A stretch of DNA of 37,167 nt from a virus. The number at the start of each line of letters is the position of its first letter. Position 1 is the first letter of the stretch. This document shows positions 5,066 through 19,646 of this stretch, one piece after another. The notes under the pieces are model-generated. The model ran no database searches and was not told where the DNA came from. It worked only from the letters and a program-made list of their open reading frames with translations. The stretch covers positions 1 through 37,167 of the IMG/VR virus record IMGVR_UViG_3300025647_000011; one strand, given 5' to 3'. Position numbers and translations under genes: made by a program.

Positions 5066-5809
5066 ATGGCAGGACCAGCTCCAGCACCAACAATGGCAGC
5101 GCAGCCTACTGCACAGCCCAACGCAACATATCAGCCAGCACCAATGGCTCCACAGCCGGGTTTTAACGTAAACCAAGCCGCTGCTGGAGCGTTGCAGGGG
5201 GCAATCGGCGGTACGCAGCGCGCAATGCAGGCTCCACTTCAAGTCGGAGCGTACGCAAACCCGTACACTAGCGAGGTTATTGACCGCACTCAGCAAGACA
5301 TTGAGCGTCAGCGTCAGATGGCGATGAACACGCTTGGCGCGCAGGCAACTGCGGCCAACGCATTCGGCGGGTCTCGCCAAGGTGTTGCTGAAGGTGTGAT
5401 GGCTGGCGAATATGGCCGCATGGCAGGCGACATGGCAGCGCAGCAGCGTCAGCAAAACTACAGCCAAGCGTTGCAGGCTGCGATGGCAGATCGTCAGGCT
5501 CGCCTTGGCGCCGCGTCTCAAATGGGTCAACTCGGCCAGCAGGCATTTGGCACAAGCCAAGCAATTCAGCAGCAGCAAGCCCAGCAGGGTCTGTTGCAGC
5601 AAGGCATCCAGCAAGCGTTAATCGACGCGGCGAGACAGCAATACGCCGGCTACACTGGCGCGCCAGCTCAATCGATTCAAGCACCGCTTAGCGCGCTTGG
5701 CATTGCTCAGCAAGGTGGGGCAAACACTAAAACGGAAACTGAAAACCAAGGTTTGCTTGGGTATCTACAGTCCGCATTAGGTGTGGCCAGCTCCCTGAAA
5801 AAGTTTTAG
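5066..5809 (+). CDS. Gln/Ala-rich internal virion (ejection) protein
   Basis: A 247-aa protein, Pro/Ala-rich for 50 residues, then a conserved helical core 'NPYTSEVIDRTQQDIERQRQ' and 'AFGGSRQGVAEG' (about 75-115), then a Gln-rich helical stretch and a hydrophobic C-terminus. This matches podovirus proteins thought to enter the host with DNA. Start follows AAAGGCGTGTAAG. It is 5 bp from the lysozyme-containing gene. High-copy amphipathic helices suggest assembly inside the capsid; the exact role is not shown. Confidence 0.7.
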   Translation: MAGPAPAPTMAAQPTAQPNATYQPAPMAPQPGFNVNQAAAGALQGAIGGTQRAMQAPLQVGAYANPYTSEVIDRTQQDIERQRQMAMNTLGAQATAANAFGGSRQGVAEGVMAGEYGRMAGDMAAQQRQQNYSQALQAAMADRQARLGAASQMGQLGQQAFGTSQAIQQQQAQQGLLQQGIQQALIDAARQQYAGYTGAPAQSIQAPLSALGIAQQGGANTKTETENQGLLGYLQSALGVASSLKKF

Positions 5810-5814
5810 AAGCT

Positions 5815-7467
5815 ATGCCACAAGGTTTCATCCCACTATCAAAGCAAATGGACTTTCTCTGGAATGAAGTGCAGGGAAAGGAAAAGTCTGGCTTTGGCAA
5901 GTTCCTCCAAGCCGATGCGTCTTCGCCGGAAGACTACGCAACTTTGTGGGATAAATACTATGAGCGCTCTGGCGGCGCTGGCGACGAAAAGGCTCGCAAC
6001 TACGCGAGCAGCGTTTACGCAGCAATGGCCGATGGCACATCCAACGAGGCTTTAATATCGCCAAACGCCAAGTTTGCTTATGGCTACCTCACGCAAAAGG
6101 GTCTCACTCCGCAGCAAGCAGCCGGCATCACTGGCCGCCTGATGGCTGAGAGCTATGAGGATATGAACCCAGACGCACGCAACACTCTTGCTGGCGGAAA
6201 AGGCACATACGGCATTGCGCAGTGGCGTGGTTCTCGCTTGCAGGATTTGGCCGACTTTACTGGCGCTGACATTGGCGACATAACATCACTGCCCGCGACT
6301 AAGCCCGGCGGCGGTTTACTTACAAGCAATCAAGGGGGTCAGACTATGCCCGATCGAAGCAAACTTCCATATATGATGGGCGGCGAGCAAACTTACAATG
6401 CACCCAACATGCGGCAACCAGCGCCACAGCAGGCTCAGCAGGGTGGGCTGCGCGGCCTTCTTTCAACAATTTCTGATAGGGCGATGGAGGTTAATCCCAA
6501 CACGGGCATGACACGGCTGGAGCAGTTTGCTGTTGCACTTGATCCACTAATAAAAAGCGACCTCCGTGGTGGTGGTGCAATTGAAAAGCGCGGGCAGCAG
6601 AGGCTTGCGGCGAGCAACAAGAACAAAACCATTGAGATGTTGCGAGCCAGAGGTCGAGATGATCTGGCTGATATGCTTGCGCGCGGTATGATTTCTGGCA
6701 CTGATGCGGCTAGTCAGTTGTTGGCCACTCCAAAGGAAAAAGGAAAAGTTGTTGACGCTTCAGTCTTGCGTCAAATGTTTCCGGGCGCGAAGATAGACGA
6801 CGGACTATACAATCTAAAACCTGATGGCACTGCAAATAAAATTGGCGGCGGTGGAGTTAGCGTTCAAAATGTTATTGGCTCGGGCGAGAAAAAGTTTGAA
6901 GAAAAGTTTGCGGAGCTTGACGCAAGAGCATTGGCTGATGTTGCTAAGGTTGGCTCAACTGCCTCCAGAAGCCTTGCGCAAATTGGCCGTCTTGAGGCCT
7001 TACTAGGAAACATTGACAGCGGCATGGGCGCGAGTATTCAGCAATTCGCAGGTAATTTCGGCATCCAGACTGAGGGTCTTGATGACATACAAGCGGCGGC
7101 GGCACTTATAAACGCCCTTGTCCCAGCGCAGCGGCCTCCGGGGTCTGGCCCAATGTCCGACGCAGATTTAGAGTTGTTTAAGCAGTCTCTGCCCCGGTTA
7201 ATTAACTCGCCGGGCGGCAACCAAATTATTATTAATACAATGCGCGGTCTTGCTGAGTATGATGCAGAGGGCGGCAGAATTGTGCAAATGCTTCGCAGCA
7301 AGAAAATTACGCAGTCGGAAGCATTTGAAATGCTAAATAACCGCGCAGACCCGTTTGCAGCTTTCAAAGCCCCAACTGGCGAAGGGTCATCGGCCCCAAG
7401 AGGCGCGCGCGAGAAGAGATGGAACCCGTCGCTAAACAACGGCGCTGGAGGCTTTGATAATGGTTGA
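5815..7467 (+). CDS. Internal virion protein with permuted tail-lysozyme domain
   Basis: A 550-aa protein. Residues 83-145 (NAKFAYGYLTQKGLTPQQAAG, MAES, YGIAQWRGSR) match the N-terminal half of the Phage_lysozyme2 (tail lysozyme) domain, with the probable catalytic Glu in MAES. Residues 8-70 (LSKQMDFLWNEVQG, then DKYYERSGG) look like the C-terminal half of the same domain, so the halves are in reversed order. The remainder is polar and helical. It would cut peptidoglycan during DNA entry. Its stop overlaps the start of the next gene by 8 bp. Domain family is confident; activity of the permuted form is inferred. Confidence 0.8.
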   Translation: MPQGFIPLSKQMDFLWNEVQGKEKSGFGKFLQADASSPEDYATLWDKYYERSGGAGDEKARNYASSVYAAMADGTSNEALISPNAKFAYGYLTQKGLTPQQAAGITGRLMAESYEDMNPDARNTLAGGKGTYGIAQWRGSRLQDLADFTGADIGDITSLPATKPGGGLLTSNQGGQTMPDRSKLPYMMGGEQTYNAPNMRQPAPQQAQQGGLRGLLSTISDRAMEVNPNTGMTRLEQFAVALDPLIKSDLRGGGAIEKRGQQRLAASNKNKTIEMLRARGRDDLADMLARGMISGTDAASQLLATPKEKGKVVDASVLRQMFPGAKIDDGLYNLKPDGTANKIGGGGVSVQNVIGSGEKKFEEKFAELDARALADVAKVGSTASRSLAQIGRLEALLGNIDSGMGASIQQFAGNFGIQTEGLDDIQAAAALINALVPAQRPPGSGPMSDADLELFKQSLPRLINSPGGNQIIINTMRGLAEYDAEGGRIVQMLRSKKITQSEAFEMLNNRADPFAAFKAPTGEGSSAPRGAREKRWNPSLNNGAGGFDNG

Positions 7468-9664
7468 TGTGACGCTTCCCGACGGGACAATACTGCGGGA
7501 CATACCCGACACCATGAGCGCGGCGGAGCAAGAGGCAGTGGTCCGTCAATACCTGATGGACAACCCCATTGAACCCGAAAAAGGCGCAATGCAGAGCGCG
7601 ATTGATTGGGCTAAAGGTGGCCAGCGTGAGGAAAACATCCCGCTGGCTTTCCAAGCGAACTTGGGTTTGCCGGAAGATAAAGCCGCAAAGATGACTGCGC
7701 TACTTGCCACAACGGCCACTGATGAGCGGCTGAAGTCCGGCATTTCAGAAATCTTGCCGGGTTCAACCTTTGACAAAGATCAATATGGAAACTTGGTTGT
7801 CACAACGCCAATTTACAGAAATGGCGAAAGGACGGAGCAGGTAAATCGCTTTTATCCCAATCCATATGGGTTGGATATGACGGACTTGATGCAGGGCGCT
7901 GGCGTTGTAGCGTCTGCCACTGGCCTTGGTAAGGTTATGAAGATGGCTGGTCTGCCCATGTCTGGCTATCTTGGGGCAACAACACTTGGTGCGACTGAAG
8001 CTGGCCTAATTGAGGCTGCAAGCTCAAAGCTATCTGGCGCTGATTTTAAGTTTAGCGACGTTCCCTTGGGCGCACTTGGCGGCGCTGCTGGCTTAAAAGC
8101 TGGTCAAATTTTATCGCGGGTTGCGGATTTATTCAAGCGAACTCCTGAGTCGGTCATGCTGCCCAATGGCCAGCTGAGGCCAGAAATAAGGCAGCAAATG
8201 GAAGCCGCTGGGATTAATGCCGATCAAGCCACGGCTGAGATGGCTGCCGCAATGCAGCAGCAAGTTGCGCGCGGGGTTGATCCGACTGAAGCGGCCCGCT
8301 TGTCGGCGGCTGAGACGTTGCCTGTGCCTGTGCCTCTAACTAGGGGCGCAACCACTGGTTCGACTGGTCAGCAATTATTTGAAGATATGGCTCGCAAAGG
8401 CGCATATGGTCAAGTTGCAGAAGCAATGATGACTTCTGCGGAAAAGAGAACCCTTGAGGCACTTCAGCAAAACTTACCAGAAATTCAGCAGAAGATAGCT
8501 GGTCAGGGGCCATTGATTCAGCGCGGCACAGGTGGCGCAGCCGCACAGGAAGCATTGTCTGCGCAGAGGCAGGCCGCGCAGGCTGAGGCAAATAGATTAT
8601 ATGATGTTGCGCGAGCTACTGGTCCAGCCTCTATGGCTGAAGACACGGCTGGCGCACTTGCTGACACAATGAGAGCATCTATTCGAGACTTCACGCCAGC
8701 ATCTCGCCCAGTCACTACAAGCATTATGGATGAGATTGATGACATTTTGGGGCAAGGTGGCGACATTAAAATGCTTTTCCAAAAGCGCCAGCAATTATCC
8801 AACGCAGGCGCGCAAGGAACGCCAGAGCAGGCGGCGGCGACAGCGGCAAGAAGGGCGCTGGATGATTCCTTAGCTGACCTAGTACAAAAGTCGCTCATTG
8901 AGGGTGATGATACAGCCATTGCGGCATGGTCTAACGCAATCAAAAACTACGCTGACTTTAAATCCACTTGGTCAAGCAAGGGCGGAATACTTAACGCGCT
9001 GACAGAAACCGTCACGCGCGATGGTGACTTAGTTCTAAAGCAACCTCCAGAGGCAGTAGCCAACTATATACTTGGCGCGTCAAATGCAAAATTACTCAAA
9101 CCGGGAAATGTATCACGAGACCTTTTGAAGCTAAAAAAGTTTCTCCCTGCGGATGAATGGAACCAAATTCGGCAGGAGGCTTTTATCAACTTAACTGATA
9201 AATCTGTCGCATCACGCGCTGGTCAGGATATGTTTTCTGGCGTAAACTTTTTGAAATCATGGAAAGACATGACGACAAAAAACCCAGAGGCGATGAAGGC
9301 ACTGTTTACAAAGGAAGAGCGTGACTTGATTGGGCAATTCGCCAGTGTGTCTGCAAGGGCCACTGGGGGTGCAGTTAATGCGTCAAACTCTGCCGCTGCC
9401 GCATCTGGCTTGATACAGCGGATTGCGGCGGCTTTGGGTTCAACAAACCTTGCGCAGTTCGCGTCAAGAGCTGTCGGCGGCAAAATGGTTCGTGAGGCTT
9501 ACGGCGGCGCAAGGGCGGTGAGCGCCATGCGTGGTGGTGCTACCCCGCAGCCTAGCACGATTTCTCCCGGTGTTGGCGGGGCAGCCTCAACAAGCGAGCC
9601 GGTTCGAGACCCTGTGCGTGAGCAAATTGAGCGCACAACTGGCTTTCGCTTCGGCGCACTCTAA
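7460..9664 (+). CDS. Large internal virion protein
   Basis: A 734-aa protein. The N-terminus (VDVTLPDGTILRDIPDTMSAAEQEAVVRQYL) is the 'DGT.L.DIPD' module found at the start of many phage virion proteins. A Gly/Ala-rich hydrophobic stretch at about 145-210 could be membrane-active, and the rest is long Ala/Gln/Glu-rich helices. An in-frame TTG at 7454 exists, but ATG 7460 is preferred. Position between the lysozyme protein and portal supports an ejection-protein role. No enzyme motif seen. Confidence 0.7.
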   Translation: MVDVTLPDGTILRDIPDTMSAAEQEAVVRQYLMDNPIEPEKGAMQSAIDWAKGGQREENIPLAFQANLGLPEDKAAKMTALLATTATDERLKSGISEILPGSTFDKDQYGNLVVTTPIYRNGERTEQVNRFYPNPYGLDMTDLMQGAGVVASATGLGKVMKMAGLPMSGYLGATTLGATEAGLIEAASSKLSGADFKFSDVPLGALGGAAGLKAGQILSRVADLFKRTPESVMLPNGQLRPEIRQQMEAAGINADQATAEMAAAMQQQVARGVDPTEAARLSAAETLPVPVPLTRGATTGSTGQQLFEDMARKGAYGQVAEAMMTSAEKRTLEALQQNLPEIQQKIAGQGPLIQRGTGGAAAQEALSAQRQAAQAEANRLYDVARATGPASMAEDTAGALADTMRASIRDFTPASRPVTTSIMDEIDDILGQGGDIKMLFQKRQQLSNAGAQGTPEQAAATAARRALDDSLADLVQKSLIEGDDTAIAAWSNAIKNYADFKSTWSSKGGILNALTETVTRDGDLVLKQPPEAVANYILGASNAKLLKPGNVSRDLLKLKKFLPADEWNQIRQEAFINLTDKSVASRAGQDMFSGVNFLKSWKDMTTKNPEAMKALFTKEERDLIGQFASVSARATGGAVNASNSAAAASGLIQRIAAALGSTNLAQFASRAVGGKMVREAYGGARAVSAMRGGATPQPSTISPGVGGAASTSEPVRDPVREQIERTTGFRFGAL

Positions 9665-16903: not shown

Positions 16904-17053
16904 ATGGGACTGTATTCAAACATCGCAAAAAAGCGTGCGCGCATTAAAGCCGGAAGCGGAGAGAAAATGCGCAAGCCCGGCACTAAAGGAGCGCCAACGG
17001 CCAGTGCATTTAAAGCGGCTGCCAAGACAGCAAAGAAAAAGGCTAAAAAATGA
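16904..17053 (+). CDS. Tiny basic phage protein (MGLYSNIAKKRARI family)
   Basis: A 49-aa, very basic Lys/Ala-rich protein: MGLYSNIAKKRARIKAGSG, then MRKPGTKGAPTASAFKAAAK and a poly-Lys end. This short conserved pattern often follows the DUF6321-like gene in marine phages. A longer ORF in another frame (16899-17081) spans it but looks like shadow sequence. The stop overlaps the endolysin start (ATGA). Function unknown. Confidence 0.75.
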   Translation: MGLYSNIAKKRARIKAGSGEKMRKPGTKGAPTASAFKAAAKTAKKKAKK

Positions 17054-17670
17054 GCAAGGCAATGGCAACGCTCCAAGCTAAAATCGGCGCAACAGCCGAT
17101 GGCGAGTTTGGCCCAAATACAGCGCGAGCAATCGCAAAGCACTTCAACCTATCCCCGGCGCGTGGCGCTCACTTGATGGGGCAGGCATCGCATGAGAGTG
17201 GTGGCTTCAAGCGCACCCGTGAAAGCCTGTATTACAGCACGCCAGAGCGCATCCAAGCTGTCTGGCCTTCGCGCTTCCCAACTGTTGCCGATGCAGAGCC
17301 GTATGCCAAAAACCCAACCGGGCTTGCTGGCAAGGTTTACGCTGGCCGCATGGGCAATGAGAATGAAGCGCAGGCCAGCCTGTACATTGGTCGGGGATTT
17401 CTTCAGTTGACCGGGCGGAATAATTATCGGGCGTTTGCGTCCGACATGGGCGTGCCAAAGGTTATGACAGACCCAGACTTGGTGGCTAACGAATATGCCT
17501 TCGAGACTGCGCTGTGGTTCTTCAATAAGAATGGATTGTTTGCCATTGCCGACGAGGGTGTGACGGACGACGCTATCAAGCGCATAACCAAGCGCGTGAA
17601 CGGCGGCTATCATGGCTTGGATGATCGAAGCAACCAGAGCAAGAAAATCCACACTTGGCTCATGGCTTAG
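17050..17670 (+). CDS. Endolysin, GH19 chitinase-like
   Basis: A 206-aa protein. Residues 1-33 (LQAKIGATADGEFGPNTARAI) resemble a peptidoglycan-binding 1 repeat. The catalytic region has 'GQASHESGGFKRTRESLYYS' with Glu49 and Glu58 at the spacing of GH19 catalytic glutamates, 'RIQAVWPSRFP', 'GNE.E..A.LYIGRGFLQLTGRNNY' and 'KRVNGGYHGLDDR'. It degrades the glycan strands of peptidoglycan at lysis. No signal peptide, so it would need the upstream holin. Confidence 0.9.
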   Translation: MSKAMATLQAKIGATADGEFGPNTARAIAKHFNLSPARGAHLMGQASHESGGFKRTRESLYYSTPERIQAVWPSRFPTVADAEPYAKNPTGLAGKVYAGRMGNENEAQASLYIGRGFLQLTGRNNYRAFASDMGVPKVMTDPDLVANEYAFETALWFFNKNGLFAIADEGVTDDAIKRITKRVNGGYHGLDDRSNQSKKIHTWLMA

Positions 17671-18229: not shown

Positions 18230-18340
18230 TCAAAATATAATGCCCACCGCCGCCATGAGGCCAGCGCCGCATATGAAGCCAATGGCGCATCCAAGTGCGC
18301 CTGCAATGTGCAATTTGCGCTCCAGCTCTTCGTCAGTCAT
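18230..18340 (-). CDS. Tiny membrane peptide after the methyltransferase
   Basis: A 36-aa ORF: acidic N-terminus MTDEELERKLHIAG, then one Gly/Ala-rich membrane helix (about 15-36). It starts inside the methyltransferase end (the ATG overlaps the TGA by 8 bases) behind a GGAGAG site, so it is translationally coupled. Last gene of the leftward operon. Downstream (18073-18229) I see no gene and no clear terminator. Confidence 0.5.
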   Translation of the reverse strand: MTDEELERKLHIAGALGCAIGFICGAGLMAAVGIIF

Positions 18341-19646
18341 CTAAACTCTCCACCATTTGTATTCTCTCGCCAATCCAGCGCATAACCGGAACAGCCATTG
18401 AGTTGCCCATCGCTTTGTATCGAGGGCCATCTGGGCAGTCCTCTGCTGGCTTATTGCGCCACGGTATCTGCGTGAAGTTGTCAGGGAAGCCTTGCAGTCG
18501 TTCACATTCTGTTGGGGTTAGGCGACGGACTTGTGGCGTTAACAGCGGCGGATGTTGCCCGCTTGCTAAAGTAAAAACAGGGTCGCCCGGCTTTGGGTTT
18601 GAACCATTTGTAGGGCTTGTTATATTCGTCGTGTCGTATGCCACCGCATGTTGGCTGCCTACGTCAAGAGTGTACATTGGCCCGTCAGTTGTTATCCCCA
18701 ATCCATTTTGCGATGCACCTCTAGTGGCGTTCTGTATCGCCACCGCAGGCGTCTTGCTTTTATCCAGCGTTGGCGTGACTTCAGTTGACACGCTGTCGCC
18801 TTGGTTGGCGCTGTTTTGCGCGCCAAAGGCTATTGGCAATGTTTTTGTTGTCGGATCGTATGCGCTGCCAGTGCGTGTGGTCAGACATTGGGCCACAATA
18901 GTCTCACTGCCTCCACCTAAGTCGCCACCCGCGGCCCTAACTGTTCCAACGCCTTCGTGATATCCCCCAAAGCTGCTTGATGTGTACCCCGTAGCCACAA
19001 TAGCTTCCGCCTCTACTCGCTGGTTTCCTGTGCGACTGAATGGAGCGCCTTGTGTAACTGTGGGGGCAGCTTTTTGCCCCGCTTCTCGGCTCGGCGCAGG
19101 ATGCCCTGACAGGCTTTCGCGCTCAAATAGAACCGCTGCGGCACGTCGCCAGTCTCCAAGGTATCCGACAACAAACACACGGCGGCGTCGCTGGGCCACT
19201 CCGAAGTATTGAGCGTCAAGCACTCTGTAGGCGAACCCATACCCGAGCTGGCCCAGCGCCCCGAGGAAGGTTCCAAAATCCCGTCCTCGTTGGCTAGACA
19301 AGACGCCGGGGACGTTCTCCCAAACCAGCCACTTGGGCTGATATTGTGCAGCAATGGCAAGATAGGTGAGCATGAGATTTCCCCTTGGGTCATCAAGTCC
19401 CTTGCGAAGTCCTGCGACTGAAAAACTTTGGCAGGGGGTTCCTCCGACCAAAAGGTCAATTGATCTGTCAATGGGCCACTCCTTAAATTGTGTCATGTCG
19501 CCAAGGTTAGGGACATCTGGGTAATGATGCGCCAGCACGGCGCTTGGGAACTTTTCTATCTCGCTGAACCACTGCGGCTCCCAGCCAAGTGGATGCCACG
19601 CGGCGGTGGCGGCTTCAACGCCAGAGCAAACTGAGCCGTATTTCAT
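18333..19646 (-). CDS. C5-cytosine DNA methyltransferase
   Basis: A 437-aa protein with ordered C5-methyltransferase motifs: I 'YGSVCSGVEAATAAW', IV 'GGTPCQSFSVAG' (catalytic Cys72), VI 'WENVPG' (110-115), VIII 'QRRRRVF' (152-158), IX 'RLTPTECERLQGFP' (about 375-388), X 'GNSMAVPV' (414-421). The region 180-370 is a long, repeat-prone target-recognition segment. It probably protects phage DNA from restriction. The start overlaps the upstream HTH gene stop by ATGA. No cognate endonuclease adjoins. Confidence 0.95.
   Translation of the reverse strand: MKYGSVCSGVEAATAAWHPLGWEPQWFSEIEKFPSAVLAHHYPDVPNLGDMTQFKEWPIDRSIDLLVGGTPCQSFSVAGLRKGLDDPRGNLMLTYLAIAAQYQPKWLVWENVPGVLSSQRGRDFGTFLGALGQLGYGFAYRVLDAQYFGVAQRRRRVFVVGYLGDWRRAAAVLFERESLSGHPAPSREAGQKAAPTVTQGAPFSRTGNQRVEAEAIVATGYTSSSFGGYHEGVGTVRAAGGDLGGGSETIVAQCLTTRTGSAYDPTTKTLPIAFGAQNSANQGDSVSTEVTPTLDKSKTPAVAIQNATRGASQNGLGITTDGPMYTLDVGSQHAVAYDTTNITSPTNGSNPKPGDPVFTLASGQHPPLLTPQVRRLTPTECERLQGFPDNFTQIPWRNKPAEDCPDGPRYKAMGNSMAVPVMRWIGERIQMVESLDD

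Follow-up and report, generated by a model that had tools for sequence, protein, structure and literature searches.

CDS 5815-7467 of the window (the whole stretch of viral DNA analysed here, 37,167 nucleotides, IMG/VR record IMGVR_UViG_3300025647_000011) very probably encodes a natural circular permutant of a phage tail lysozyme, which would be ejected with the DNA to open the peptidoglycan. Domains with the swapped order form a diverse branch of this lysozyme family that has apparently not been described before.

The lysozyme halves are in reversed order

The CDS encodes 550 residues when read from 5815, the earliest start codon in frame. When the whole protein was compared with PF18013 (Phage_lysozyme2, phage tail lysozyme) by hmmscan, the score was 82.5 bits, split over two stretches. 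The two parts were also scanned alone. Residues 8-71 matched profile positions 75-140 (33.6 bits, E 5.2e-8), and residues 84-154 matched positions 2-71 (57.8 bits, E 1.8e-15). Because both halves separately exceed the curated cut-off of the family (28.2 bits), each of them is callable as PF18013 by itself. The earlier note had placed the C-terminal half at residues 8-70 and the N-terminal half at residues 83-145, in the reverse of the usual order. These ranges were accurate, with the domain extending to about residue 154 (base 6276), and the HMM match of each half gave the same reversed order. An ordinary PF18013 member matches in a single stretch over positions 1-140. In the window protein positions 75-140 precede positions 2-70, so it is described as belonging to a permuted subfamily rather than as an ordinary member. 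PF18013 was the only family matched in this protein at E up to 1, and SLT (PF01464) was not matched.

A PF18013 search over the whole record yielded exactly two pieces, 5836-6027 (profile 75-140) followed by 6064-6279 (profile 2-71), and there was no stop codon between 5836 and 6279. No second copy or any further piece was detected elsewhere in the record, in agreement with the earlier reading that no missing half is present upstream or downstream. The features are listed in Table 1.

Table 1. Positions of the permuted lysozyme gene, its parts and the neighbouring genes in the window
Feature	Position	Strand	Evidence or remark
Ejection-type protein with N-terminal permuted tail lysozyme and long body	5815..7467	+	550 aa; phage-protein homologues
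First half in the chain, canonical C-terminal part of PF18013 (profile 75-140; residues 8-71)	5836..6027	+	HMM
New linker from old C-terminus to old N-terminus, residues 72-83	6028..6063	+	HMM gap, model
Second half in the chain, canonical N-terminal part of PF18013 (profile 2-70; residues 84-154), containing the catalytic motif MAES	6064..6276	+	HMM
Glu112, proposed catalytic acid	6148..6150	+	Aligned with phi29 gp13 Glu45; invariant in 30 permuted domains
Glu50 in the YERSGG motif, within the half placed first	5962..5964	+	Invariant across the aligned permuted domains
Protein body, about residues 205-525	6427..7389	+	Common to proteins with other N-terminal wall-cutting domains or none
Upstream gene, DNA ejection protein family	5066..5809	+	phrog_4287
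Downstream 736-aa ORF, candidate further ejection protein	7454..9664	+	Position only; 14-base overlap with the lysozyme gene

The swapped order recurs in many relatives

The order of C-half then N-half is kept in close relatives from IMG/VR. Half-domain HMMs were built from eight canonical-order proteins only, so that this order test was free of any presupposed permutation, and they gave the reversed order in the relatives too. More distant permuted domains were found by scanning with an alignment of N-halves of both orders (A9). Among the sequences fetched, 77 distinct ORFs with 66 distinct domains were permuted and 43 were canonical; these counts also rest on half-HMMs from the permuted alignment and come from a sampling aimed at the permuted subfamily, so they give no frequency in nature. 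The permuted domains diverge down to about 32% identity, and in all permuted ORFs the HMM halves lie 4-9 residues apart. The domain is N-terminal in proteins of about 400-550 residues (about 400-540 in L228, L231, L295, L298 and L316) and of about 870-1,090 residues (L230, L237, L242, L265 and L330), and internal in proteins of 1,111-1,492 residues (L218, L219, L224, L297 and L305). Three-half intermediates (CNC or NCN) were absent among the ORFs examined.

The permuted alignment was also run against 385 genomes from the class of a Devosia genome, where it matched weakly three times, always in canonical order. No permuted example was confirmed in named phage records, and the matches checked there were canonical, SLT or without a clear domain. 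Colinear, permuted-looking tblastn matches in Caulobacter phage Cr30, PMS3 and VL10 proved canonical on Pfam scan. The Rhizobium phage homologue of the window protein, used as a whole-protein query, returned zero IMG/VR loci. In the part of the literature that was available, no natural circular permutant was found to be reported for phage lysozymes, for muramidases or for lytic transglycosylases, which is not proof of absence.

The two halves are predicted to form one domain with a conserved putative active site

AlphaFold2 models were built from alignments that contained permuted rows only. With 25 close rows, the model reached a pLDDT of 72 and a pTM of 0.75, and with 30 diverse rows the values were 91.3 and 0.89, with one compact domain. 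Since the pTM of 0.89 covers the whole construct, the halves are placed confidently relative to each other. The two parts are predicted to fold as one compact domain, as the earlier note had suggested for a true permutation. The 30-row model contains helices at residues 8-20, 24-32, 38-50, 57-72, 83-94, 99-113, 139-149 and 153-157, and short strands between 122 and 138. Its confidence is lower mainly at the new linker (block 71-80, with the lowest pLDDT of 69) and at the C-terminal end.

In VIA-align, the first model was matched over its residues 1..72 with residues 81..159 of phi29 gp13 (3csq; Z 2.2, rmsd 3.7, 69 aligned), and the second model over its residues 77..156 with gp13 residues 10..88 (Z 2.9, rmsd 3.8, 76 aligned, 25% identity). 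Both matches show the permuted correspondence; they are weak, were obtained with one model each and ranked below unrelated helical chains. Named matches in BFVD (probability 0.94-1.00) included a gp13-like protein and several tail lysozymes of phages, with about half of the model covered. No tail lysozyme was among the Foldseek matches to PDB for either model. An aligner that follows the chain in order cannot span both halves of a permuted fold and is expected to see only one of them, which may explain this absence.

Glu45 of phi29 gp13 has been suggested as the catalytic residue, its counterpart in a GH184 muramidase is essential by mutation, and gp13 Gln54 has been suggested to stabilise the substrate (PMC10394673). 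In the PF18013 profile alignment, Glu112 of the window protein, in the MAES motif, falls on gp13 Glu45. In the 30-sequence permuted alignment (A10), Glu112 and Ser113 do not vary, and neither do Glu50 (YERSGG motif) and Asn123, the latter aligned with gp13 Gln54. Based on these alignments, Glu112 is proposed as the catalytic acid of the permuted domain.

The domain tree favours a single permutation

A tree of 61 domains was calculated from an alignment in which the halves had been aligned separately and their columns then concatenated. One branch (support 93/75), which occurred in 92% of the bootstrap trees, split the permuted from the canonical forms; when the order labels were shuffled on this tree, about 19 changes were needed. 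Trees of the single halves, which have few columns and poor resolution, gave two changes, so it is the concatenated alignment that speaks for one origin. The simplest reading, with moderate support from these sequence trees, is a single permutation after which the domain spread into several architectures. Canonical domains carried by homologous bodies are not adjacent to the window family on the 61-domain tree, and the body may have received a domain that was already permuted.

The gene lies among ejection and head genes, and its N-terminus is an apparent exchange slot

The gene order around the lysozyme is a DNA ejection gene (phrog_4287), CDS 5815-7467, the 736-aa ORF, and then the portal and capsid genes of SU10 type. 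The window phage is SU10-like. The context is therefore that of an ejection protein, with an ejection gene upstream and a SU10-type portal and capsid downstream. The 736-aa ORF showed no convincing match in Pfam, PHROG or NCBIfam. A separate endolysin-like gene (phrog_181) is present at 17050-17670, which leaves the lysis role to a protein other than the window lysozyme. A C-5 cytosine DNA methylase is encoded at 18333-19646 on the minus strand, among genes that are mostly on the plus strand.

The body of the window protein is shared by ORFs of L082, L090, L105, L109, L128 and L131. In the same N-terminal slot, homologous bodies (window residues 205-525) carry SLT in L082, L090 and L131, Hydrolase_2 (a cell-wall hydrolase) in L105 and an M15 peptidase in L109. 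Two further body homologues, L107 and L120, show no N-terminal enzymatic domain. In the 1,339-aa protein of L297, the permuted domain occupies the position of SLT in the 'internal virion protein D' of MW202675, and the two proteins align on both sides of the slot with 61% and 31% identity. This 'internal virion protein D' (L336:2971-6528, MW202675.1) has Peptidase_S74 and SLT in one protein. As judged from sequence comparison, domains are exchanged at the N-terminus of this ejection-type family, in a slot which holds SLT, Hydrolase_2, M15, a canonical or permuted lysozyme, or no domain that could be seen. The interchange of wall-cutting domains in the slot argues for a wall-cutting function during entry. 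T7 gp16-type proteins are packaged in the virion and ejected. By analogy with them, and from the gene order and the annotation of the homologues, the window protein would likewise be packaged in the virion and ejected with the DNA.

Proposed mechanism and alternative explanations

According to the explanation that we favour, the N-terminal ~160 residues would be a PF18013 domain that was circularly permuted in nature; the lysozyme domain of phi29 gp13 belongs to the same family. The chain would have been opened at the canonical junction of the halves, at about profile position 71-75, so that the old C-half comes first and is followed, after a short linker, by the old N-half. The halves would refold into one lysozyme domain with Glu112 as the catalytic acid, and this domain would serve as the enzymatic head of the protein encoded between the DNA ejection gene and the portal gene. 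Most likely, the protein would be packaged in the virion and delivered with the genome, and a local cut in the peptidoglycan would permit DNA passage. From the evidence above we infer both the enzymatic activity and the timing of its action.

The earlier note had left the choice between a true permutation and the remnant of a tandem duplication, in which the C-half of copy 1 and the N-half of copy 2 survive in a degenerate or inactive domain. The true permutation gained support from the swapped order in 77 distinct ORFs of several architectures, the compact predicted domain and the invariant Glu. Permutation by duplication is a usual route to a swapped order, and no complete canonical copy is left in the record, as a remnant would have it. 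However, an extra half was present in none of the ORFs, the halves are conserved over 66 distinct domains down to about 32% identity with Glu50 and Glu112 invariant in the aligned set, the linker length is nearly constant, and a single domain is confidently predicted; as the present state, a remnant is thus very improbable. As the historical route to the permutation, duplication followed by trimming is likely, and no intermediates of it were found among the ORFs examined. A mis-assembled or chimaeric contig that joins pieces of two lysozyme genes could be suspected because the record is a single virus contig, but dozens of separate IMG/VR contigs, and distant proteins as well, show the identical order, which refutes this and leaves it almost no probability at all. 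An artefact or a chance match was likewise excluded, as each half scores above the PF18013 cut-off and the reversed order is seen again on separate contigs.

Two other alternatives accept the order of the halves and concern how they work. The C-half of one subunit could pair in trans with the N-half of its neighbour, by domain swapping in a virion oligomer. Ejection proteins are usually oligomeric, and the prediction, made for a monomer, is compatible with swapping. The monomer pTM of 0.89 and the short linker, however, fit pairing within one chain, and the domain is also found in the middle of long proteins, which makes pairing in trans decidedly unlikely. The fold could also be kept as a wall-binding or structural module instead of an enzyme, and the body homologues without an enzymatic domain (L107 and L120) fit such a role; yet the catalytic Glu is invariant and the slot otherwise holds wall-cutting enzymes of unrelated families, so we regard a non-enzymatic module as unlikely, though less so than pairing in trans. 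The natural permutant therefore remains the preferred explanation. It is conceivable, if rather doubtful, that the permuted lysozymes all belong to one old, successful subfamily and that the permutation was kept in it as an adaptation to delivery, through the attachment of the body relative to the active-site lobe or through the order of threading and refolding once the enzyme has passed the tail. If this is true, the permutation is no neutral accident.

Lysozymes that were circularly permuted in the laboratory are well known. A natural and diversified permuted branch, with both orders found on homologous bodies, is a natural experiment on the evolution of fold connectivity, and it bears on whether connectivity matters for proteins that pass the phage tail and refold. 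Annotation sees the permuted proteins as two half-hits and may fail to recognise a cell-wall enzyme in them. The different N-terminal enzymes on homologous bodies also show the slot to be an exchange point for wall-cutting domains.

Comparison with canonical tail lysozymes and known systems

The canonical order was found by Pfam in Cr30, PMS3, Moonbeam, ET-ABTNL-9, Bcep781 and VL10, and by half-HMMs in Twort, Bobb, phi17:2, XapPhi1 and WC36-2. The body of the window protein is homologous to a 'putative tail protein' of Rhizobium phage RHph_I3_18, and canonical PF18013 is present on homologous bodies in this phage, L064 (Devosia pacifica), L065 (a Hyphomicrobiales MAG) and L042. RHph_I3_18 and L065 share the body with about 36-44% identity over long stretches, and in these two and L064 the lysozyme domain lies in the N-terminal part, as in the window protein. 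The two genes upstream in L065 resemble, as read by eye, the window's own upstream genes. In contrast to the window protein, the domains of RHph_I3_18, L064 and L065 have the canonical order and are placed elsewhere among the 61 domains of the tree, and the permuted domain of the window protein therefore need not have arisen from theirs in place. In L103:4582-5280, L104, L135:3227-3892 and L136, the canonical lysozyme has a small ORF of its own, which lies upstream of the body gene and is not fused to it. L102:4786-4983 and L100:4645-4809 are very similar, except that the canonical C-half of L102 contains an extra stretch, GLPVQGVENLPFFG.

The closest named PF18013 halves are those of the Herelleviridae tail lysins (Twort, Moonbeam and Bobb, 'tail associated lysin'), which share 38-46% identity with the window protein over the N-half. 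Unlike the window protein, they have the canonical order and lie within tape-measure or tail lysin proteins. In the T7 gp16-like internal virion protein D, as would be expected by analogy for the window protein, the wall-cutting part belongs to an ejected virion protein; that part is an SLT transglycosylase, whereas the window protein has no SLT. In the phi29 gp13 lysozyme domain (PDB 3csq and 3ct5), both halves match PF18013 as they do in the window protein, QSES aligns with MAES and Glu45 with Glu112, and the window domain is predicted to be, like gp13, mostly helical with a small beta lobe. The two differ in that the halves are reversed in the window protein, whose body is attached after the canonical N-half and not after the C-half, and in that the window protein is of the ejection type, whereas phi29 gp13 is a tail-tip protein.
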